64,000 nucleotides of DNA from Dehalogenimonas lykanthroporepellens BL-DC-9 (GTDB taxonomy: Bacteria > Chloroflexota > Dehalococcoidia > Dehalococcoidales > Dehalococcoidaceae), in the NCBI GenBank assembly GCA_000143165.1, contig CP002084.1, positions 248,001 through 312,000 on the forward strand, given 5' to 3'. Numbering within the stretch: the first letter of the stretch is position 1; the number at the start of each line of letters is the position of its first letter. The position numbers and the translations under genes are program-made. A model generated the notes under the pieces. That model ran no database searches. It saw only the letters and a program-made list of their open reading frames with translations, and was not told where the DNA came from. Positions 46,160 to 58,500 of this stretch are shown one piece after another.

Positions 46160-46930
46160 AATAAGCAAATGCTTTCAATAAGGTGTCTTTACGAACGGCT
46201 CCGGCCACCAAGCACCCATCCCCCAACCTTCTTTGCGAAGCCGCGTCAGCGGCTGTGGCAATCTTGGTACCCATAGCTGAGAGATGACTGCTGACGGCTG
46301 ACGGCTAATATACCCCGTCTTTGCGAGCCTACGGCGAAGCAATCTCGGTACCCCGGTCCCCGTTTCGGTCATTGTGATTTTGATGGTTCCCCCGTCACTG
46401 CATTCCTCGGGACGGCTTCGCCGGTTTATTATCTGGTGCTTGGAATTTGGAATTTCCCGTGCGCGACTGATAAAGGCCTTCGCCAGTGTAGGGGTCGGCC
46501 ATGGCCGACCCGCCCTTGTCGTATGAACCGATTCCTTCTCCCGTCTTTGCGAAGCCGCCGCCAGACGGCTGTGGCAATCTCGCTACCCCATCCCCCAACC
46601 GTCGTTGCGAAGCCGCCGCCAGACGGCTGTGGCAATCTCGCTACCCCATCCCCCAACCGTCTTTGCGAAGCCGCGTCAGTGGCTGTGGCAATCTCGGTAC
46701 CCATAGCTGAGAGCTGATTGCTGAAGGCTGACGGCTAATATGCCCCGTCGTTGCGAGCCTACGGCGAAGCAATCTCGGTTCCCCGGTTCCCATTTCGGTC
46801 ATTGTGATTTTGATGGTTCCCCCCGTCACTGCGTTCCTCGGGACGTCTTCGCCGGTTTGTTATTTGGTGCTTGGGATTTGGAATTTCCCGCCTAACCCGG
46901 GGAGTGGTAAGTCTGTCGAACCGTGAACGG
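46160..46930. repeat. Intergenic repeat modules, block 4, with a 58-bp tandem repeat
   Basis: The longest repeat block. It holds several TTGCGA...GGC(A/G)ATCTCG elements, two AGCTGA.A..TGACTGCTGA elements, a GTGTAGGGGTCGGCCATGGC hairpin near 46486, and GATTTTGATGGTTCCCC modules near 46377 and 46808. At 46541-46704 a 58-bp unit occurs in tandem: full at 46541-46598 and 46599-46656, partial from 46657. It has no spacers of differing sequence, so it is not CRISPR. No gene was recognised. Confidence 0.85.
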
Positions 46931-46997
46931 CCCCCCCCCTTGCCTCCTTCCTCATTCCGTAATACCATACAACCGTCGGAACAAAAGGAGAAAAACC

Positions 46998-48257
46998 ATG
47001 ACCGCAGATCTATCCAGCGTCGCCGCCAAACCAGGCCACCCTGAATACCACCGTCTTACCGCCAGAGCAGACCGCCTTTACCAGCGTGACGCCGACCCCC
47101 GCAGTCCCTTTATCCGTGACTACAACCGTATTCTGCACTGCACCGCCTATCGCCGCCTCAAGAATAAGACCCAGGTTTTCTACGCCACCGAAAATGACCA
47201 CGTCTGCACCCGGATAGAGCACGTCAATCATGTCGTGGCCATCAGCAACACCATCGCCACCGGCTTCGGCCTGAACCAGGAACTGACCAACGCCATCGCC
47301 ATCGGTCATGACGTGGGCCACGCCCCCTTCGGGCATGAAGGCGGGGAGATACTCAGCCGGCTGATGCTGGAGACTCTACATAAAAACTTCTGGCATGAAA
47401 GAAACAGCCTGTGGTTCGTCGATAACATCGAAACACTGGCCGACCCCGAAAACTGCCAGCAGAATCTTGACCTGACCTACGCCGTCCGCGACGGCATCAT
47501 CGCTCATTGCGGCGAAGTTGACCAGATCGGCCTCCGCCCCCGCCAGGATTTCATCCGCCTTGAAGACGAGTTCAATCTGCCGGCTCAGCACCAGCCGGTC
47601 TCCTGGGAAGGCTGTGTCATCAAAATCGCTGATAAAATCGCCTATCTCGGCCGGGATATCGAAGACGCCTTCACCCTGGGCTTGTACACTCGGGAAGATT
47701 TCTGCCGCCGGATAGCCGATATCGACCCGTCATTCCCGGCGGAGTTCCGGCGGCTTTTCGGCATTGACCTGGCGCAGGTTTCCAACTCGTACCTGATTCA
47801 CCGGTTCATCCTGGACCTTTTCGACCATTCTACCCTGGAATCCGGTTTATGCTTTTCCGCCGGATACTACGCCATGATGAAAAAACTGCGGTCTTTCAGT
47901 AACCGGCTCATTTACCAGTACCCGCGCCTGAAACATTTCGTGGATTACGCCCGCTTGATAATAGAGGCCATATTCAAGGAGCTGGAGAAGTACTGGGATG
48001 ATGACTCTGCCGTCCTGCTGGACGGTATTCAGGGTATTCAGCGGTTCGCGCCGCGGCTGTATCGGGAGTTTCAAGACTGGACGGTCAAGTATTCGTCCCT
48101 GCTTCCGGAGGAAAAACTGGCCAGGGGCTACCGGAACCGGGAGGTCTATGACTATTCGTCAAGGGATGATTATATCCTGTCGGTTCTGGACTTCATCTCC
48201 GGAATGACCGACCGTTTCGCTATCTCGGTTCACCGGGAACTGACGAGTTTTCGGTAA
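46998..48257 (+). CDS. dgt: dGTPase-like HD-domain phosphohydrolase
   Basis: The 419-residue product is a deoxyguanosinetriphosphate triphosphohydrolase: RTRIEHVNHVV-type HD start (CTRIEHVNHVVAIS), the HD motif in AIAIGHDVGHAPFGHEGG, and KIADKIAYLGRDIEDAFTLGL (last metal Asp). Dgt enzymes cut dGTP to deoxyguanosine and triphosphate. ATG at 46998 has AAAGGAG upstream; the longer frame from 46923 is repeat sequence. Similar dGTPases can limit phages by lowering dNTP levels; this one sits next to the restriction island but on the other strand. Confidence 0.92.
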   Translation: MTADLSSVAAKPGHPEYHRLTARADRLYQRDADPRSPFIRDYNRILHCTAYRRLKNKTQVFYATENDHVCTRIEHVNHVVAISNTIATGFGLNQELTNAIAIGHDVGHAPFGHEGGEILSRLMLETLHKNFWHERNSLWFVDNIETLADPENCQQNLDLTYAVRDGIIAHCGEVDQIGLRPRQDFIRLEDEFNLPAQHQPVSWEGCVIKIADKIAYLGRDIEDAFTLGLYTREDFCRRIADIDPSFPAEFRRLFGIDLAQVSNSYLIHRFILDLFDHSTLESGLCFSAGYYAMMKKLRSFSNRLIYQYPRLKHFVDYARLIIEAIFKELEKYWDDDSAVLLDGIQGIQRFAPRLYREFQDWTVKYSSLLPEEKLARGYRNREVYDYSSRDDYILSVLDFISGMTDRFAISVHRELTSFR

Positions 48258-48269
48258 TCATCGAAATAG

Positions 48270-49535
48270 TTAGATCATTTTAGGAGGCATTATCGTATAA
48301 CGCACAGGGTTGGTTAACTTCTGGACTTTGCCTTCCTTTAACAAGGCTTTCAAGCAACTATTTATTTCAGTATTTTTTACGCCTAACGTCTTAATCAGGC
48401 TGGTGGGGGTTGTCGGTGTTGGGTCTTTTTTCAGAGCTTTCAGTATCCTGGTTCCTAAATCTTCAGTCACTACTTCTTCATCGGGTTCCGGGTTATTCTG
48501 GTTTGATTTTGGTTCATCGGTAATTATGGCAACTTCCGGTATAGCTTGGTCTTCTGCTATCATTGGCATTTCGGGTTGGACCGGCTGTTCTTTTTGCGGG
48601 GAGTTCATCAAGATGTTCTGTAAGTCGTATTTATCTTCAGGCTCCGGCCATTCCTCGGCTCCCAATTTTGACAATTCTTCCAGCCCTTTTGATTCCCCTT
48701 TGCTGTTACGAACGAACACTCGCGCGTATTTCAGTTTTTTCAGTTGCTCATAAGCTCCGGCCCATGTCCCGCCGGTTTTGTAATCCGAATTAACCACCAA
48801 TGCGGCATCTGCCAGTGCGTAGATAAGCTTATTTCGATTCATTGCGTTGCCCACATTGAAACCGGCTGAAGGGTTGAAAGGTGTTATTAGCACTAGCCTT
48901 TCGTCAATAAAAAATTGCCGGTTTTCTCTCTCAACCGACGCTTTTGTCAAACTATCCGCTAAAACACCAACCGCCCGTCCTTCACATTCCAAAGCCCCCC
49001 TCATAGATGCCCGGTCAATACCTCTTGCTCCGCCGGACACTATGCCGATATTACCTGCCGCGGCGAGCCGGCCGACTTTTTGGGCATAGTCGCGTAGTTG
49101 TTCATCAACCTTTCGGGAGCCGACTACTGCCAGCCCTCCCCCTTCCAGAATACTAGGGTCTCCACATCCGTATAATATCGCAGGTGAATTGTCCTTCAGT
49201 TTCGCCTTAAATCTGCTTGGGTATTCCTGGTCGGCGCGGCTGATAACCCAGATTCCCCGCGCCGCCCAATAATCGGTCGCTTGGCTGAGAAGAAATCCGC
49301 GCTCCAGCAAGCTTCCCAGTCGTGACTTGTCGAACAGGCCGGTCAGTGCATCTAGTAATTCCTCTGATTTCTCGCCCAGCAGGTCAGCTGGCTCTTTTTC
49401 AAGCGTCATCAGGCAAGTTGCCAGTTTTTTGTACTCGGTGTGCGTCAGGATATTAGTTGGCACAGCGCCCCGGCTTACTATCAAAGGAGCGGTGAGCAGT
49501 AGTATAGCCTGTGTATTTTCTGAAATTGTGTTCAT
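48270..49535 (-). CDS. DprA/Smf-like (SLOG) protein
   Basis: The 421-residue product contains a DprA-type Rossmann fold: YPSRFKAKLKDNSPAILYGCG, then GLAVVGSRKVDEQLRDYAQKVG, VSGGARGIDRASMRGALECEGRAVGVLAD, and NRNKLIYALADAALVV. A charged linker (residues about 300-355) leads to a C-terminal winged-helix-like part (GTRILKALKKDPTPTTPTSLIKTLGVKNTEINSCLKALLKEGKV). Classical DprA loads RecA in natural transformation. This one, starting four bases after the RecQ-PRTase stop, is more likely a partner of that protein. ATG at 49535 is chosen over GTG at 49550, which would overlap the stop. Confidence 0.85.
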   Translation of the reverse strand: MNTISENTQAILLLTAPLIVSRGAVPTNILTHTEYKKLATCLMTLEKEPADLLGEKSEELLDALTGLFDKSRLGSLLERGFLLSQATDYWAARGIWVISRADQEYPSRFKAKLKDNSPAILYGCGDPSILEGGGLAVVGSRKVDEQLRDYAQKVGRLAAAGNIGIVSGGARGIDRASMRGALECEGRAVGVLADSLTKASVERENRQFFIDERLVLITPFNPSAGFNVGNAMNRNKLIYALADAALVVNSDYKTGGTWAGAYEQLKKLKYARVFVRNSKGESKGLEELSKLGAEEWPEPEDKYDLQNILMNSPQKEQPVQPEMPMIAEDQAIPEVAIITDEPKSNQNNPEPDEEVVTEDLGTRILKALKKDPTPTTPTSLIKTLGVKNTEINSCLKALLKEGKVQKLTNPVRYTIMPPKMI

Positions 49536-49539
49536 TGTT

Positions 49540-51612
49540 TTACTTTCCACTTGTTACTGACAGCGCCATCGGCCACACCGGTCCACTGCCTTTTGTTGTC
49601 AATAGCCATCCGGCAATCGTCAAAGTCCATCTTGAATCAACCATATCGTCCACCAGAAGTACTGGCCCATTCGGTATTATATCAGCCTTGATTTCCAGAG
49701 AGCCATCCAGATTCAGCGCCTGGTAATAACTGTTAGCCATCGTTTTCTGTTCTGGACGTTGGTCTCTTTTCTTCAATACTTGGACAAAAGGTAGTTTCAA
49801 CTCCCTCGCCAATCTGGCGGCGAATTCGGGAACCAGGTTAGGATGCCTGGTTGAAGGAATACAGGTAACCCAGGCCGGGGCCGGTTGCGGGTTCCATTTC
49901 CGGTATAATTGTACGCAGGCCGTTACCAGTTCATCTGGATAATGTGAATCTGTATATTTACCTTTACGTACCATTTGCCCCCAACCAGCGTCTCCCCAGA
50001 CACACAACGCTTTGCCCGGCTTGTTACGGAATTCTGTCGGAATATATCCTTTCAAACCGTAAATCGGAAGATAGCCTACCGGCCATTTCAAGCGTGGTTC
50101 AATGACTTGTTCCGTGCGCTGTAAAAACCTGACGGCGTCTTTGACCAGATTTGGGTCTGTTTCTTCTGAGAGTTTCGGGGCTCTTGGTTTATATATTTGG
50201 TTGATGTCTCCATCCAGAGCATGCACCAGGAATTCCATGTGGTCGTGGTTCAGTCTGACATAATCCTGCATTTGTCGTTGTTCCGTTTTACGTAATTCGG
50301 TCAGCCTGGTTATTCTTTCCCAAAATTCTGGATTTATCTTGGCGGCGGTCAGTTGCCATTTATAGCCGTCTTTAACAACAGGGGCCGGAGACTCCAGAGA
50401 TAAAAGCTGCAGGGCTTGTTTTATACGCCCGTAACCAATGTTTGCTGTCTGAGTCAACTCATCAATTGTTAAACCGCTTGGCTCTTCCAACAAAGCGTTT
50501 AGTATCGCGCTAACCTCTGCCTGTGAAGGGAAAGCGCTGTCGATAAAATAATCCGTTATATCCGTATCTTCTTCGCCGCTGAACAATATACCGTGTGCGG
50601 CCTTTAACGCTCGTCCCGCCCGACCAACTTGTTGATAGTAGGCGACTACCGAGCCCGGCGTCTGGTAATGGATGACAAAGGCCAAGTCGGGTTTATCGTA
50701 TCCCATACCCAAAGCTACCGTTGATACCAAGGCTTTTAAGTTGTTATTCAATAAAGCCAGCTCTAGTTTCTCTCTATTTTCGGATTCGCTGGTATAAGCT
50801 TCTACATTCAATCCTCTGGACTTCAGCCAGTTCGCTACTCGATACGCGTCTCTGACTGTCAGAGTATAAATAATACCGTTTCCCTCTAACAACGGAACAT
50901 ACTCGGCCAGCCATGCCAGGCGTTCCGCCTGGTTGGGCATGATTATCGTTTGTAGAACCAGTGAGTACCTGGTTAATTCACCTCTTGATACCATCAGATG
51001 TGGCCCCAGTATCTGTTTCAAATCGTCCATAACCCGGTTATTGGCCGTGGCGGTGGTAGCCAGCATTCTCAGGTTACGTGGTAATCGTTTGATTATTCTT
51101 TCGATGAGCCGGTACTGCGGCCTGAAATCATGCCCCCAGTCGGAGATACAATGTGCCTCATCGATGACAATTAAAGAAATTTTATCAGAAATCTTTGATA
51201 AAACCTTATCGTTGAAGCGTTTGTTTTCCAGTCTTTCCGGAGAGATCAGCAGAATATCAATTTCATTATTCTTGATAGATTCCTCGATATCAGTCCAGTT
51301 AGCCTCATTGGTTGAATCTATTTTTACCGCCTTTACCCCCATTTTCTCAGCGGCTTGAATCTGATTCCTCATCAGTGACAGCAAGGGGGAGATCAATAGA
51401 GCCGGGCCATGGCCTTGTTCTCGCAGGAGCTTGACTGCTATGAAGTATACAAAACTCTTACCCCAGCCTGTTTTCTGAACTACCAACAATCGGCCCTTGC
51501 CCTCGACAATATGGCGTATAGCTTCTTCCTGGCCTTCTCTGAACTTAGCGTTAGGTTTGCCACAGCCTACTCTCAGCAGTTCCAGCGCCCGGGCACGTGA
51601 ATATACAGCCAT
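49540..51612 (-). CDS. RecQ-family helicase fused to a phosphoribosyltransferase domain
   Basis: The 690-residue protein has a DEAH RecQ helicase core: Q-motif region FREGQEEAIRHI, Walker A LLVVQKTGWGKS at residues 42-53, DEAH at 151-154, LATTATA, and motif VI YYQQVGRAGRA. A linker with zinc-less winged-helix-like helices follows (residues 380-470). The C-terminus is a type I phosphoribosyltransferase, with the PRPP loop VLLVDDMVDSRWT at 651-663. A helicase-PRTase fusion is unusual for RecQ. It lies 68 bp after hsdR and four bases before the DprA-like gene. PRTases can act in nucleotide signalling; a defence role is inference. Confidence 0.9.
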   Translation of the reverse strand: MAVYSRARALELLRVGCGKPNAKFREGQEEAIRHIVEGKGRLLVVQKTGWGKSFVYFIAVKLLREQGHGPALLISPLLSLMRNQIQAAEKMGVKAVKIDSTNEANWTDIEESIKNNEIDILLISPERLENKRFNDKVLSKISDKISLIVIDEAHCISDWGHDFRPQYRLIERIIKRLPRNLRMLATTATANNRVMDDLKQILGPHLMVSRGELTRYSLVLQTIIMPNQAERLAWLAEYVPLLEGNGIIYTLTVRDAYRVANWLKSRGLNVEAYTSESENREKLELALLNNNLKALVSTVALGMGYDKPDLAFVIHYQTPGSVVAYYQQVGRAGRALKAAHGILFSGEEDTDITDYFIDSAFPSQAEVSAILNALLEEPSGLTIDELTQTANIGYGRIKQALQLLSLESPAPVVKDGYKWQLTAAKINPEFWERITRLTELRKTEQRQMQDYVRLNHDHMEFLVHALDGDINQIYKPRAPKLSEETDPNLVKDAVRFLQRTEQVIEPRLKWPVGYLPIYGLKGYIPTEFRNKPGKALCVWGDAGWGQMVRKGKYTDSHYPDELVTACVQLYRKWNPQPAPAWVTCIPSTRHPNLVPEFAARLARELKLPFVQVLKKRDQRPEQKTMANSYYQALNLDGSLEIKADIIPNGPVLLVDDMVDSRWTLTIAGWLLTTKGSGPVWPMALSVTSGK

Positions 51613-51680: not shown

Positions 51681-54089
51681 CTACACCTGTGAACCCTTGG
51701 CCGGGTTATATAAATACTTTTGAAACCCACGGAATACCCGGCGTATTTCATCCACGTCGCCAAGTATCCGTAGCGCGTCAAAGGTAGAGTGATATTTCAA
51801 ATTGAGCAGGGGATTGAGCTTATCTTCATCAAGTTCCTCAACCCCCACGTTGACATAATGTGACAGCACGAAATCCAGGAATTCCTGCTGGTTGCTGTCG
51901 AAACTGGTGTGTATAACTGATTTGGCATTTTCCGCCCGTTTCTCACGGCTCACCGGTGCCAGCGCCCAGCTGATATGAGCCAGCACATCGAACAGGTCGC
52001 TGTTTTCAGCGTCGATGATTTTCTGCATCTCAGCCAATTGTTCTTTTCCGAAGCCATTTTCCGCCAGTCCATTCAACAGTTTTCTTCGGGTTTCTGGAAT
52101 GCTCCAGAGCTGTCGTAGTTCCGCCTCATCCTTGAAGAATTCCGGAAGTTTGCCATATAGCAGTTCCATAAATTGCTGTGATGAAACCGGTTTTCCGTCG
52201 GGATGCCAGTAGCTGGTCACCATCATGTGCTGGATGTTCCGTTCCTTTCCGTCAGCCAGTTTCACTTTGGTGCGAGTCTGCTTATTACAGATGCAGTTCA
52301 ATTCACCGCATACCGGGCATGGCTCCTTTACACATTCACATGGCGTTTGTCCGCAGACATCACATATCTTCGCCGGCTTTTCACAACGGCAGGGGCGATG
52401 ACCGCATACTGGACACGTCTTCAACTCAACCGGCTCTATCGGCTCACCGTCCCATTCAGTGTCGTTGAAGAGCAGGTAGGCTTTAACAAAATCGTGAATG
52501 GTAAAGTAATACTTGCCGTCATAAATGCGGGTGCCCCGGCCGATGATCTGCTTGAACTCGATGATTGAGTTTATCGGGCGCATAAGCACTATATTGCGGA
52601 TATTGCGGGCATCCACGCCGGTGGAAAGTTTCTGAGATGTCGTCAGTATGGTCGGGATGGTTTTTTCATTGTCCTGGAAGTCACGCAGGTGCTGGTCGCC
52701 TATTGCCCCGTCATTGGCGGTTACCCGCGCGCAGTAGTTGGGGGCACGGCTGGCTTTCATCTGGTTTATCAGGTCGCGCACCGCCAGCGCATGGTCCTGG
52801 GTAGCGCAGAACACCAGCGTTTTCTCATTCTGGTTAATCTGCTCCATGAACAGTTCAACCCGGTGTTTCTCTCGTTCCTTTATCTCGATAATTCGGTTGA
52901 AGTCGGTTTCGGTATAGCGTTTGCCGTACTCCACCTCGCCTTCCAGCACCAGGTCATCTGGAGTATAGACGTATTCATCCAGGGTGGTAGCGTATTGCTT
53001 AACCTTGAACGGTGTTAAAAACCCATCGTTGATACCTTCTTTCAGTGAATAGACATATACCGGTTCACCAAAGTAGGCGTAGGTATCCACGTTATCCCGC
53101 CGTTTGGGTGTGGCCGTCAGGCCAAGCTGGGTTGCCGGGCTGAAATACTCCAGTATAGCCCGCCAGGTGCTTTCGTCATTGGCTCCACCCCGGTGGCATT
53201 CGTCGATGACGATGAAATCGAAGAAATCAGGCGGATATTCGCCAAAGTAGGGAGTCGGTTCGCCGTCTGTCGGCGGGCCGCTCATGAAGGTTTGGAAGAT
53301 GGTAAAAAACACACTGCCGTTTTTCGGCACCCGTTCCTTTTTCCTGATGTCATCCGGCTTAATCCGCACCATACCGTCTTCGGGGAACGCGGAAAATGAT
53401 GTAAAATCGTTGTAAGCCTGGTCGGCCAGGTTATTCCGGTCTGCCAGGAACAGTATCCGCGGCCGCCTGGTCGGTTCGCCGGACAGGTTCCACCTGGTCT
53501 GAAAAAGCTTCCAGGCTATCTGAAAGGCTACGGCAGTTTTTCCTGTGCCGGTGGCCATGGTCAGCAGAATCCGCTTTTTTCCGTTGGCTATTGCCTGTAA
53601 CACCTTGTTGACGGCAATTTCCTGGTAGAAATGTATCTTCCAACTGCCGCTTTTATCCGGTAAAGGCACCATGGCAAATCGGTCCCGCCAGGCGTTGGCT
53701 TTGGTAAAGGTCATATTCCACAGTTCGTCAGGTGTCGGGAAGCTCCGGATTTCGCCTTCGGCACCGGTTTCCATATCTATGGCGTAGATACCTTTGCCAT
53801 TGGCTGAATAGGTGAAGCGCAGTTTCATCTTTTCAGCGTAGTCCTTGGCCTGTCCCACCCCCTCGGTCAGTTTCTCATCCCAGGCCTTCGCTTCTATTAC
53901 CGCCAGTTTGGTATTTCGGTATTCCAGCACATAATCAGCCTTGAGCGGCTTGCCGCGCCGGCCTTGCCCTTCTATCCGGCCGCGGGTGATAAAAAACTCC
54001 CGCCGCACTTTGCTTTCGGCTGTCGTCCCCCAGCCTGCCGTCGTTAGTGCGGGGTCGATGTATTCGGCTCTGGTTTCGGCTTCGTTCAT
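51681..54089 (-). CDS. hsdR: Type I restriction enzyme R subunit (EcoEI-like)
   Basis: HsdR cuts unmethylated DNA using ATP-driven translocation. The 802-residue product has an N-terminal PD-(D/E)XK nuclease (Asp52 in ADYVLEYR, Glu66 and Lys68 in VIEAKAW), a helicase with LLTMATGTGKTAVAF (residues 176-188), DECH at 296-299 and LGLTATP, and motif VI QIIGRGTR. Between the helicase and the C-terminal EcoEI domain (KVKLADGKERNIQHMM) is a cysteine-rich insert, residues 559-601, with three CxxCxxxxCxC knuckles. It is the last subunit gene; the small nuclease-like gene before it is broken by IS5. Its start at 54089 is ATG. Confidence 0.95.
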   Translation of the reverse strand: MNEAETRAEYIDPALTTAGWGTTAESKVRREFFITRGRIEGQGRRGKPLKADYVLEYRNTKLAVIEAKAWDEKLTEGVGQAKDYAEKMKLRFTYSANGKGIYAIDMETGAEGEIRSFPTPDELWNMTFTKANAWRDRFAMVPLPDKSGSWKIHFYQEIAVNKVLQAIANGKKRILLTMATGTGKTAVAFQIAWKLFQTRWNLSGEPTRRPRILFLADRNNLADQAYNDFTSFSAFPEDGMVRIKPDDIRKKERVPKNGSVFFTIFQTFMSGPPTDGEPTPYFGEYPPDFFDFIVIDECHRGGANDESTWRAILEYFSPATQLGLTATPKRRDNVDTYAYFGEPVYVYSLKEGINDGFLTPFKVKQYATTLDEYVYTPDDLVLEGEVEYGKRYTETDFNRIIEIKEREKHRVELFMEQINQNEKTLVFCATQDHALAVRDLINQMKASRAPNYCARVTANDGAIGDQHLRDFQDNEKTIPTILTTSQKLSTGVDARNIRNIVLMRPINSIIEFKQIIGRGTRIYDGKYYFTIHDFVKAYLLFNDTEWDGEPIEPVELKTCPVCGHRPCRCEKPAKICDVCGQTPCECVKEPCPVCGELNCICNKQTRTKVKLADGKERNIQHMMVTSYWHPDGKPVSSQQFMELLYGKLPEFFKDEAELRQLWSIPETRRKLLNGLAENGFGKEQLAEMQKIIDAENSDLFDVLAHISWALAPVSREKRAENAKSVIHTSFDSNQQEFLDFVLSHYVNVGVEELDEDKLNPLLNLKYHSTFDALRILGDVDEIRRVFRGFQKYLYNPAKGSQV

Positions 54090-54474
54090 TGGATTACTTA
54101 TTCGGCATCGGGATTTTCATAAAGGATTCTATTGAAATTAGTGGCGATGTATTTTTCGAATTGGGGTTTGACATGTTCGGTTAGGGTTCTGGAGTTTTTC
54201 CCATTGAACCAGATACTGCGTTTGCCCGCGTTTTTACCGGTTTTATTTTGGACAGCTTCTTTAATGAACTCGTTTGATGAGAGTATCCACATCTTTTCCA
54301 TACGTTCGGCGTAAAAGACAAACCAGTAATTTTCACGGATTTCATGACCCAAAGCGGCAAATAAGGCCGCGCTTCCGAATTCTACATCCTTTGAACGCGC
54401 TTTGATTTGTACCTCAACGAATTTGCCATTTGGCCGCTTAACCACAGCATCAATAGCGTCATCATCCACCATAG

Positions 54475-55778
54475 CAGGGTGCTGAAAAAGTCGTCATTAA
54501 TCCGCGATTGGGGTAAAATATATCATCCCATTGACGGAGGCTGTAGATTGCGCGGCAAGGTAGAAAATCAATCCCTCATGCTCTGCTCGCTGACACCAGA
54601 TCAGCTTGTACCCCAGGGCCATCCTATCCGGCGAATCAAACCCCTTGTTGACCAAGCTCTCAAAGAACTCTCTCCCGTTTTCAACAAGATGTACGAAGAC
54701 TTTGGCCGGCCATCAATACCGCCGGAGCGTCTGCTCAAGGCGTCGTTGCTTATCGCTCTCTACTCGATCCGCAGTGAGCGGCAGTTCTGTGAACGGCTAC
54801 GGTATGATCTCCTGTTCAAGTGGTTTATGGATCTCAACATCACGGATCCAGGTTTTGACGCCTCGAGTTTCTCAAAGAACAGGCAGAGACTGATAGAGCA
54901 TCAGGTAGCACGTGAGTTTTTTGGCGCGGTGGTGAGTCAAGCGCGGCGGCAGAAGTTGCTATCGGATGACCATTTCACCGTGGACGGCACCTTGCTGGAA
55001 GCCTGGGCTTCGTTGAAGAGCTTTCGGCCGAAGGACGGTGGGGAACCGCCGAAAGGCGGCGGCAAGAATCCGAGTGTGGATTTCCACGGCGAACGCCGGG
55101 TCAATGCTACGCACCGGTCAACCACCGACCCAGAGGCCCGGCTGGCCAGAAAAGGGGCGGGCAAAGAAGCCAGATTGTGTTTTGCCGGACATGTCCTCAT
55201 GGAAAACCGCACCGGGCTGGTAGTGGACGTGGTGGTAAGCACGGCGACCGGGACAGCGGAAAGAGACACCGCACTTGAGATGCTGGAGAGGGTACCGGGG
55301 AAACATCGGATAACGGTGGGTGCGGACAAGGGCTACGACACAGAGGATTTTGTGACTACCTGCCGGGATTTCAACACCACACCACATGTAGCCTGTAAGA
55401 AGTGGTCGGCGATAGATGGACGTACCACCCGGCATGCCGGTTACAGTGTCAGCCAGAGGGTGCGCAAGCGCGTTGAGGAGATATTCGGTTGGGTCAAGAC
55501 AGTGGGAGGAGGTCGAAAGCTTAGGTACAAAGGTGTCAATCGCAACCAACTCTGGGCGGAATTGACGGTGGCGGCTTACAATCTGGTGCGGATGGCCAAA
55601 TTGGTGCCCGCCAGTCCGGCACAGGGGTGAAGTGTGTCCTTTCAGGGCTTACAGGATCAAAAATGGGGGTGCTAAAGCCCCGGGAGGGATAAAAATCATC
55701 TAAAATAGGCCGCAGAGTTTGGTTATACTGGCATTTGTTCCTGTATAATCGTTGCAAACGGCCTATTTCAGCACCCTG
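54475..55778 (+). mobile_element. IS5-family insertion sequence, copy 2
   Basis: This 1304-bp element equals copy 1 (29101-30404) in length and ends (CAGGGTGCTGAAA inverted repeats). The 4-bp duplication ATAG flanks it at 54471-54474 and 55779-55782. It splits a small gene in the hsd operon. Because the operon's genes lie on the minus strand, the element is in the opposite direction and may disturb hsdR expression. Confidence 0.95.
54548..55630 (+). CDS. IS5-family (DUF772/DDE) transposase, copy 2
   Basis: The product is identical in sequence to the copy 1 transposase over its full 360 residues, with the TTG start at 54548 after GGAGG. It shows the same DUF772 and DDE motifs. The open frame upstream to 54407 reads through the split host gene and is not part of the transposase. 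Confidence 0.92.
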   Translation: MRGKVENQSLMLCSLTPDQLVPQGHPIRRIKPLVDQALKELSPVFNKMYEDFGRPSIPPERLLKASLLIALYSIRSERQFCERLRYDLLFKWFMDLNITDPGFDASSFSKNRQRLIEHQVAREFFGAVVSQARRQKLLSDDHFTVDGTLLEAWASLKSFRPKDGGEPPKGGGKNPSVDFHGERRVNATHRSTTDPEARLARKGAGKEARLCFAGHVLMENRTGLVVDVVVSTATGTAERDTALEMLERVPGKHRITVGADKGYDTEDFVTTCRDFNTTPHVACKKWSAIDGRTTRHAGYSVSQRVRKRVEEIFGWVKTVGGGRKLRYKGVNRNQLWAELTVAAYNLVRMAKLVPASPAQG

Positions 55779-55885
55779 ATAGGGACATAAACATCCAAGC
55801 CTTCTTTAAGCATTAGACCGATAATATAATACTCCATGCGTTTGCCGAAGGCGGCGGAGTGGCGGTACGTTTTATGATTTTCCAT

Positions 55886-57043
55886 TTACAACTCCCCACT
55901 GAATGCTTGATGCAACAGCGATTTCTTTAATTCTTCCAGGGCGGCGAGTTTTTTTTGGTAGATGGATTGAAGGTGTTGAGTTTCGGTTTTGAGTTTATCT
56001 AAGTTATTAACAATATATTTCTGTTGTTCCAAAGGCGGTACAGGGACAATGCGTTTCTCAATTGAGCCCTTGCTTACGTGCATCATTGTTGTTCCAGTCC
56101 CGTGCAATTGCTTGATCTGCTCAACATCCCAAGAAAGTAAATACAATAAAAAGCGTTTGTTGGTGAGATTTATATTTGGGATGACTTTCCAAATATGGTA
56201 ATGGTAAACGACCTTTCCGCCCTCCCAAATTCGTGGGCCGAAAGATGCTGACCATGCGTAGAGTAAGTCTCCAGTGTCACAATATTTAGCTGGCTCCAAA
56301 TCAAGATCTGTATAGTACCAATCGTTGTTTGTAAAAAAGTTGCCGACACGCAGGAGTGGGTATTTACCTGCACTAAGCATTTCATTTTTCTTATATGCGC
56401 GACCGTTTATGAAAACGCAGATATCAGAAAGACGCCTCTCCACCCACCCCTCCCCCCGCCGGGAAAATACGGAATTAAGGTGGCTTTCAAAAAGGGCGCG
56501 CGCGTTTTGGAGGTTCTTTTCAGCTTTGGCTTTGGCTGTTGCTATTCCCTCGAATGCCTCATCGAGGATAGTCACAATGCGTTGCTGTTCGGGGAGGGGC
56601 GGGAGGGGAATTTGGAGTGACTTAATAAAAGGGAGTTTTACGCCTTGGACAGTAGCACCCGTCCCTTCGGCTACGATAGTATCAACAACACTTTTGAGCC
56701 ACCAAAATAAATATCTTACGAATAGGATATTCGAATCTTTCGGTACAATTCCACGAAGGTCTTGATTGATGGCAGTATCTTGACCGAGTAAACACACTTT
56801 GCCCAAGCCAACACGGGTCGCGATGACAACATTACCATTTGAAATAATTTTGGTTGCACTATTTTTTACGGCTACGTGTGTTATCTTGTGCTCAGTCTCA
56901 GTAATCAGATCCGTCCGCATATCTCTCACAGTCGCCCACGGAATGTTGCCCACGTAATACTCTGCAATACTCTTCGATGGTGTGCCACCGCCAATTACTT
57001 GGCAGATATCACCTAGCGCTTTTACCTGCCACCCATTCTTCAT
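55886..57043 (-). CDS. hsdS: Type I restriction enzyme specificity subunit
   Basis: HsdS sets the DNA recognition site for methylation and cutting. The 385-residue product has two target-recognition domains (about residues 1-150 and 190-350), each followed by a conserved helix region (PLPPLPEQQRIVTILDEAFE and VPVPPLEQQKYIVNNLDKLK), the usual two-fold layout. Its ATG overlaps the hsdM stop by four bases. It ends next to the start of the small split nuclease-like gene. Confidence 0.95.
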   Translation of the reverse strand: MKNGWQVKALGDICQVIGGGTPSKSIAEYYVGNIPWATVRDMRTDLITETEHKITHVAVKNSATKIISNGNVVIATRVGLGKVCLLGQDTAINQDLRGIVPKDSNILFVRYLFWWLKSVVDTIVAEGTGATVQGVKLPFIKSLQIPLPPLPEQQRIVTILDEAFEGIATAKAKAEKNLQNARALFESHLNSVFSRRGEGWVERRLSDICVFINGRAYKKNEMLSAGKYPLLRVGNFFTNNDWYYTDLDLEPAKYCDTGDLLYAWSASFGPRIWEGGKVVYHYHIWKVIPNINLTNKRFLLYLLSWDVEQIKQLHGTGTTMMHVSKGSIEKRIVPVPPLEQQKYIVNNLDKLKTETQHLQSIYQKKLAALEELKKSLLHQAFSGEL

Positions 57044-58500
57044 AGTAAAGCCTTGATTCTCTCCAGCACTTCCGCGCTTTCAGCATCCAGCGCCGCTATC
57101 TCATCCATTATTTCCTGCGGACTCCGGTGGTTCACTTCTTCTTTTCCGTTGGGGTTCTTGACGGATAGGTCGAAGGTTGTCTGGTCTATGGTGCTTGCTT
57201 CCACGCTCCAGCTTTTAGGGGAATCGGCAAATGTCTTTTGCAGTTCGACAAATTCTGCCAGGTCGTTGTCGTTTAGCGGGTTGGTCTTACCCAGGTTGCG
57301 GCCGGGGTCCAGCTGGTAATACCAGGTTTTGCGGGTGGGAGCGCCTTTTTCGAAGAACAGCACCACCGTCTTGACGCCGGCGCCCAGGAACGTGCCGCCG
57401 GGACAGTCCAGAATGGTATGCAGGTTACAGCTTTCCATTAGGAGCTTGCGCAGGCTGACAGAGGCATTGTCGCTGTTGGAAAGAAAGGTGTTTTTAATGA
57501 CTATGCCCGCCCGGCCGCCGGCTTTCAGCATCTTGATGAAGTGCTGCAGGAACAGGAATGCTGTTTCGCCGGTGCGGATAGGGAAGTTCTGCTGTATTTC
57601 CTTGCGTTCCTTGCCGCCGAAAGGCGGATTGGCCATGATGATGTCGTAGCGGTCTTTTTCCTGGATGTCGGCCAGATTTTCAGTCAGTGTGTTGGTATGA
57701 AGAATGTTGGGGGCTTCTATGCCGTGCAGAATCATGTTCATGATGGCGATGACATAGGCCAGTGATTTCTTTTCCTTGCCGTAGAAGGTGGATTTCTGCA
57801 ATGTGTCCATGTCTCTGGTGGTCAGCGTGTTGGAAGCCTTCAGGTAGTCGAAGGATTCACACAAGAACCCTGCTGAGCCGCAGGCGCCGTCGTAGATGGT
57901 TTCGCCGATTTGCGGGTTGACTACTTTGATAATGGATCGGATGAGAGGACGCGGGGTGTAGTATTCGCCGCCGTTTCGGCCGGCGTTTCCCATATTCTTG
58001 ATTTTGGCTTCGTAGAGGTGGGACAGTTCGTGTTTTTCAGTCTGTGAGCGGAAGCGGAGTTCATCTACGTGGTCAATGATTTCCCGCATGTTATAGCCGC
58101 TGGTGATCTTATTCTTGATTTCCCCGAATATTTCGCCGATTTTATATTCAATGGTATCCGGGCCGGTGGCGGTCTGCTTGAAGCTTTGCAGGTAGGGAAA
58201 CAGTTTGGTATTGACGAATTCGACTAAATCGTCACCGGTCTTGGCCTTGTTGTGGTCTATTTTGCCGTTGCCGTTCTTGGGAGCCGCCCAGCTATTCCAG
58301 CGGTAAGGCTCATCAAGAATGCATTTATACTTCCAGCCTCCCAGTTCGGCCTGTAATGCCCTTTCTTCTTCCAGCCCTTGCAGGTACTTAAGGAACAGTA
58401 GCCAGGAGGTTTGTTCGGTGTAATCGAGTTCGGTGGTACAGCCTGCCTCTTTCCAGAGGACATCATCGATGTTTTTGAAAGCCAGTTCGAACATGGGCAT
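57040..58500 (-). CDS. hsdM: Type I restriction enzyme methyltransferase subunit
   Basis: HsdM transfers methyl groups to adenine at the HsdS recognition site. The 486-residue product has an N-terminal helical domain (LDYTEQTSWLLFLKYLQGLE), the SAM region with EYYTPRPLIRSI and YDGACGSAGFL near residues 180-214, and the catalytic NPPF at 291-294, then a C-terminal EcoEI-type tail. It is the first gene of the hsd operon; a promoter is seen at 58542-58570. Confidence 0.97.
   Translation of the reverse strand: MPMFELAFKNIDDVLWKEAGCTTELDYTEQTSWLLFLKYLQGLEEERALQAELGGWKYKCILDEPYRWNSWAAPKNGNGKIDHNKAKTGDDLVEFVNTKLFPYLQSFKQTATGPDTIEYKIGEIFGEIKNKITSGYNMREIIDHVDELRFRSQTEKHELSHLYEAKIKNMGNAGRNGGEYYTPRPLIRSIIKVVNPQIGETIYDGACGSAGFLCESFDYLKASNTLTTRDMDTLQKSTFYGKEKKSLAYVIAIMNMILHGIEAPNILHTNTLTENLADIQEKDRYDIIMANPPFGGKERKEIQQNFPIRTGETAFLFLQHFIKMLKAGGRAGIVIKNTFLSNSDNASVSLRKLLMESCNLHTILDCPGGTFLGAGVKTVVLFFEKGAPTRKTWYYQLDPGRNLGKTNPLNDNDLAEFVELQKTFADSPKSWSVEASTIDQTTFDLSVKNPNGKEEVNHRSPQEIMDEIAALDAESAEVLERIKALL

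Follow-up and report, generated by a model that had tools for sequence, protein, structure and literature searches.

Within the window, a stretch of 64,000 nucleotides from the genome of Dehalogenimonas lykanthroporepellens BL-DC-9, two intact and abutting open reading frames lie on the minus strand, and these correspond to the predicted toxin gene psyrT (also rqlH) and the predicted antitoxin gene psyrA (also rqlI) (Table 1). The psyrT product carries the helicase motifs TGWGKS (Walker A, K52), DEAH (D151) and GRAGR, such that both the Walker A lysine and the DEAH aspartate are intact. Pfam recognises DEAD and Helicase_C domains and, more weakly, a Pribosyltran domain (PF00156, E=1e-4, below the curated cut-off), to which the phosphoribosyl pyrophosphate (PRPP) loop VLLVDDMVDSRWT belongs; the last aspartate of the DMVD within this loop is residue 659 (codon 49636-49638). 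The psyrA product is 426 amino acids long if read from a GTG, or 421 from an ATG at 49535 that sits four bases past the TAA stop of psyrT and is the likely start. It incorporates a DprA/SLOG domain (DNA_processg_A, PF02481, E=1.1e-35) and a winged-helix tail whose match is marginal (PF13412, E=1.6e-4, slightly below the cut-off). Thus, the toxin gene is upstream of the antitoxin gene, on the same strand and abutting it, which is the PsyrTA gene order. The initial annotation had read this locus as a 690-residue RecQ-type helicase with a C-terminal PRPP loop, followed four bases past its stop by a DprA-like protein with a charged linker and a winged-helix tail, and we find every one of these elements in place.

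Table 1. Features of the psyrTA locus and its surroundings; coordinates are window positions.
Feature	Coordinates	Strand	Evidence and remarks
dGTPase-like HD-domain gene	46923..48257	+	PADLOC dGTPase PDLC02374 E=5.8e-52; below NCBIfam cut-offs
psyrA / rqlI, predicted antitoxin	48270..49550	-	DprA/SLOG domain, acidic linker, winged-helix tail
psyrT / rqlH, predicted toxin	49540..51612	-	690 aa; RecQ-family helicase (~1-480) and C-terminal ComF/ShosT-like phosphoribosyltransferase (PRTase, ~483-690)
PRPP-binding loop of PsyrT	49624..49662	-	VLLVDDMVDSRWT, residues 651-663
hsdR, EcoAI/FtnUII-family type I restriction subunit	51681..54089	-	NF046051 E=4.4e-244, above cut-off
C-terminal remnant of small gene split by the insertion sequence	54098..54472	-	begins at the edge of the insertion sequence
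IS5-family insertion sequence	54469..55784	+ (transposase ORF)	NF033581 E=1e-80; between hsdS and hsdR
hsdS, type I specificity subunit, neighbour	55886..57043	-	PF01420 E=6.6e-56
hsdM, type I methyltransferase, neighbour	57040..58500	-	PF02384 E=4.7e-63; PADLOC MTase_I E=1.3e-163

Both proteins match the dedicated PADLOC profiles over their full length. PsyrT (PDLC03928) aligns with residues 6-689 of the 690-residue protein over profile positions 5-686 of 689 (E=2.5e-271), and PsyrA (PDLC03927) aligns with residues 6-420 of 426 in the partner over positions 1-396 of 398 (E=2.2e-126); matches of this order (1e-271 and 1e-126) are far past chance. Housekeeping identities were considered and rejected for each protein. 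The helicase scores 263 bits with the RecQ model TIGR01389, against an equivalog cut-off of 640, and passes only the subfamily model TIGR00614, while the partner scores 93.5 bits with the DprA model TIGR00732, against an equivalog cut-off of 191. The pair shares with RqlHI of E. coli F11 and PsyrTA of Pseudomonas syringae a RecQ-PRTase fusion upstream of an abutting, DprA-like winged-helix partner, as well as gene order, size, catalytic helicase motifs and the PRPP loop. It differs from them in its neighbours, which are type I restriction-modification (R-M) genes and a dGTPase-like gene, and in sequence, the toxin and antitoxin being 46-63% and 34-45% identical to those of two E. coli pairs. 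Over nearly full length, these identities are 63% and 45% to a pair annotated as RecQ-DprA in E. coli WP2-S18-ESBL-08 (L084) and 46% and 34% to a pair on E. coli plasmid P3 (L086). We also considered whether the plasmid P3 protein and F11 RqlH might be one and the same. The helicase residues of the P3 protein, K49 and D148, agree with the published F11 RqlH numbering, but the DIVD of its PRPP loop occupies 674-677 instead of ending at 663, which makes it a related protein and not F11 RqlH.

This kind of gene pair has been described before. The validation of PsyrTA is credited in PMC8790059 to Sberro et al. (2013), Russell and Mulvey worked on RqlHI in 2015 (PMC4670107), and a 2022 paper groups syrTA and rqlHI as toxin-antitoxin systems with DprA-homologue antitoxins (PMC9122126). 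Because of their shared architecture and these sources, we treat rqlHI and psyrTA as one family. In a 2017 review, a helicase-PRTase fusion had also been described as coupled to DprA, with the suggestion that it senses or makes nucleotides upon DNA entry (PMC5512222). PsyrTA is present in PADLOC as a defence system and is among the helicases listed by DefenseFinder. We therefore conclude, with a probability of roughly 0.92, that the pair is psyrTA (equivalent to rqlHI), a toxin-antitoxin module of two genes that is suspected of acting against phages. The initial annotation was correct that a helicase-PRTase fusion is functionally paired with a DprA-like protein and linked to defence, but its suggestion of an undescribed system is ruled out by the full-length PADLOC matches and the literature, the pair being one that had already been named, as PsyrTA and RqlHI, between 2013 and 2015. 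One candidate is thus struck from the undescribed systems, and pairs of a helicase-PRTase fusion and a DprA-like protein are to be recognised as PsyrTA/RqlHI.

The structure of PsyrT was modelled in two ways. The model of the whole 690-residue protein has a mean pLDDT of 78.6 and is poor at residues 300-337; its residues 1-480 match the cores of RecQ proteins (4q48_B, Z 26.5, 3.2 A over 365 residues). The search with this model listed RecQ helicases only and is uninformative on the C-terminal part, and residues 483-690 (208 residues) were folded alone, giving a model of high confidence (pLDDT 90.1, pTM 0.88). Its best match is Helicobacter pylori ComF (Z 13.9, 4.6 A over 170 residues), followed by ShosT with bound PRPP-Mg (Z 11.7, 3.6 A over 165 residues) and then by adenine PRTases (APRT, Z about 11). 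The model supports a ComF/ShosT-like PRTase fold, carrying the PRPP loop, for the C-terminal domain of PsyrT, as a PRTase had been anticipated from the loop, and its predicted kinship with PRPP-bound ShosT offers a testable lead, namely disturbance of the purine pool. ShosTA, like the window pair, combines a PRTase toxin with a DprA-like antitoxin, and window PsyrA matches ShosA weakly (E=1.2e-24). However, ShosT has no RecQ helicase domain whereas the window PRTase is fused to one, and with the partner scoring 420 bits for PsyrA versus 85 bits for ShosA, membership of ShosTA was rejected. The competence machinery of ComFA-ComFC and DprA likewise has a helicase, a ComF-type PRTase and DprA as parts, but there they are separate genes with another helicase and a role in DNA uptake, and do not form an accessory toxin-antitoxin pair.

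The published genetics of the E. coli F11 pair point to where toxicity resides. RqlH expressed without RqlI causes SOS induction, filamentation and growth arrest, and this is largely abolished by deletion of the PRTase domain or by the PRPP-loop mutation D663A (PMC4670107). The PRTase alone is insufficient for toxicity in E. coli, helicase-dead mutants have worse effects, and the helicase domain also restrains the PRTase (PMC4670107). RqlI suppresses the toxicity of RqlH in E. coli F11 and co-precipitates with RqlH, although not with RqlH that lacks its PRTase domain (PMC4670107). The term helicase-effector module, as first applied to the window pair, was therefore nearly right, except that these genetics assign toxicity to the PRTase and the role of antitoxin to the DprA-like protein. 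In the related ShosTA system, the phosphoribosyl transferase and pyrophosphatase activity of ShosT disturbs purine metabolism, leading to DNA duplications and filamentation, and ShosA binds DNA (reviewed in PMC12593503).

A different possibility is that the pair is a housekeeping helicase-DprA unit for DNA repair or natural transformation, and neither a toxin-antitoxin nor a defence module. This would be consistent with the DprA and ComF homology of the two proteins, with the helicase activity of M. smegmatis RqlH, as cited in PMC4670107, and with the suggestion of Russell and Mulvey that the pair has an undefined beneficial function on DNA (PMC4670107). However, a ΔrqlHI double mutant has no fitness defect while a ΔrqlI mutant is sick (PMC4670107), which is what would be expected of a toxin and its antitoxin. 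Moreover, we found no full-length PsyrT or PsyrA in seven genomes of the same genus, where the matches are to ordinary RecQ or DprA proteins; the strongest match to PsyrT (E=1.6e-94, in congener G005) was rejected as a counterpart, being an ordinary RecQ of 616 amino acids without a PRTase. Since seven congeners have no full-length copy of either protein, psyrTA is probably an accessory gain in this genome, and other DprA homologues are present both in the congeners and in this genome too. We consider a housekeeping role very unlikely.

Judged by its homology to these studied relatives, the window pair most likely comprises a PRTase toxin that is tethered to DNA and held back by PsyrA. DprA proteins bind single-stranded DNA. 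PsyrA would bind PsyrT, with the PRTase domain as the probable site, and so keep the toxin in check, and infection or DNA damage might then release PsyrA, plausibly through competition for single-stranded DNA. Once freed, the helicase-tethered PRTase could act on PRPP and nucleotides, by analogy with the effect of ShosT on the purine pool, or on DNA ends, and this action may lead to DNA damage and abortive infection. When another PsyrTA was tested in its native host, E. coli NILS69, it gave no detectable phage protection and impaired growth on expression (PMC12409345), and the defence activity of PsyrTA should therefore not be assumed.

A genome scan returned at least 568 confirmed relatives, of which 80 were kept for comparison. 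The sources of these 80 include Proteobacteria, Nitrospirae, Chlorobiaceae, Acidobacteria, Planctomycetes, Cyanobacteria and Chloroflexi, among others. How often a DprA-like gene lies near a RecQ-PRTase fusion had been posed as a check on the pairing, and among the kept relatives a PsyrA homologue is immediately downstream of psyrT in all 79 that could be assessed, nearly always overlapping or abutting it; the 80th was left out of this count, its contig ending inside psyrT. In most relatives the extrapolated psyrA start precedes the toxin stop by about 15 bases (in the numbering of the window GTG), and the geometry is therefore abutting, as in the window; an apparent gap of 393 bases in one relative (L083) arises from a partial match to the antitoxin. 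The Walker A and DEAH motifs are conserved in 79 of the 80, and the PRPP loop, [L/I]DDxx[D/N/G]SxWT, is retained in all untruncated copies. The strict form of the loop pattern was found in 52 of 80, and the tails of the other 28, read by eye, comprise 27 variant loops and one truncation at a contig end. In an alignment of 34 proteins, the invariant positions include D655, D656, S660, W662 and T663.

Upstream of psyrT, hsdM, hsdS and hsdR follow one another on the same strand, as first noted, with the last of these 68 bp from psyrT and, as a neighbour, outside the module. The series is interrupted between hsdS and hsdR by an IS5-family element, of which the genome has seven near-identical copies and whose 22-nt inverted repeats occupy 54469-54490 and 55763-55784, and by the small gene it has split. 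The upstream fragment of that gene, MENHKTYRHSAAFGKRMEYYIIGLMLKEGLDVY, reads from about 55886 (the piece at about 55785-55886), and its C-terminal remnant had no match in the family searches.

Linkage of psyrTA to type I R-M genes is real and recurrent, though not general, and occurs in three layouts: R-M genes upstream of the pair, as in the window; the pair nested among them, as in E. coli; and R-M genes downstream of psyrA, as in other relatives. Among the 80 relatives kept from at least 568, HsdM is encoded within two genes downstream of psyrA in 10 of 61, compared to none of 64 upstream of psyrT. In a number of relatives (L012, L014, L016, L019, L027, L051, L060 and L078, together with L052 and L015) the end of a WYL-domain regulator gene is separated from the start of psyrT by a few bases, and the type I R-M genes come after psyrA in most such loci. 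Nine of these WYL genes are at least 87% identical to the reference copy and their carrier loci are from different genera, which suggests that the WYL-psyrTA-hsd cassette is one recently spread mobile module. The E. coli layout, hsdM-hsdS-psyrT-psyrA-hsdR, places the pair inside a type I R-M operon in four of the four copies opened (L085, L086, L131 and L132; three chromosomes and one plasmid), and this type of pair, at no less than 99% identity, is carried by 53 of 5426 E. coli genomes. The plasmid carrying the nested layout is a conjugative IncF plasmid.

These recurring arrangements raise the possibility that PsyrTA is coupled to the adjacent R-M system in the manner of PrrC, with the R-M proteins silencing the module and phage anti-restriction triggering it. 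In PrrC-EcoprrI, too, a suicide effector is linked genetically to a type I R-M system, but PrrC is an anticodon nuclease without a DprA-type antitoxin, and the coupling of PsyrTA to R-M is hypothetical. The recurrence in three layouts, including the nested E. coli form, and the downstream bias of HsdM would speak for coupling. On the other hand, in 51 of the 61 relatives neither of the next two genes downstream encodes HsdM, most of the ten linked loci have the near-identical WYL gene in common and resemble a single mobile lineage, other E. coli psyrTA pairs stand alone, F11 rqlHI is a two-gene operon set apart from its neighbours (PMC4670107), and the role of restrainer is already filled by PsyrA. 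Coupling of this kind is improbable in our view. A more specific version, in which a PsyrTA embedded in or adjacent to R-M genes guards the restriction enzyme, such that loss or inhibition of HsdMSR by phage unleashes the helicase-PRTase, appears slightly less probable still; if true, PsyrTA would be a PrrC-like second line behind HsdMSR. Since the linkage is found in a minority of loci, mostly of one mobile lineage, co-location in a defence island is favoured over an obligate composite, and the type I R-M genes beside the pair most likely constitute a separate, co-located defence system. As to the association with defence genes that the initial annotation proposed to score, the pair recurs beside type I R-M genes but only in the minority formed by the 10 of 61 relatives and the nested E. 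coli form. This minority, with its hsdM-hsdS-psyrT-psyrA-hsdR arrangement in E. coli, provides a system for testing PrrC-like coupling.

On the other side of the pair, the dGTPase-like gene converges on psyrA, with the two stop codons 12 bp apart. It has no full-length counterpart in the seven congeners, where the best matches are partial at 41-44% identity, which makes it probably accessory; it may also be a further defence gene. Elsewhere in the same genome, at 1584318-1592958 (L130:319-8959, minus strand), there is another DprA-like/PRTase pair, this one lacking a helicase. Its DprA-like protein of 322 amino acids matches PsyrA (E=1.4e-60) and ShosA (E=9.7e-45), and its PRTase protein of 298 amino acids matches the PRTase part of PsyrT (E=3.7e-8) and ShosT (E=6.9e-5). 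This second pair is flanked on the same strand by BREX pglZ-brxL and Hachiman hamA-hamB, the gene ends around it either overlapping or lying 60-odd bases apart, and a ShosTA-like pair situated between two known systems may merit separate study.
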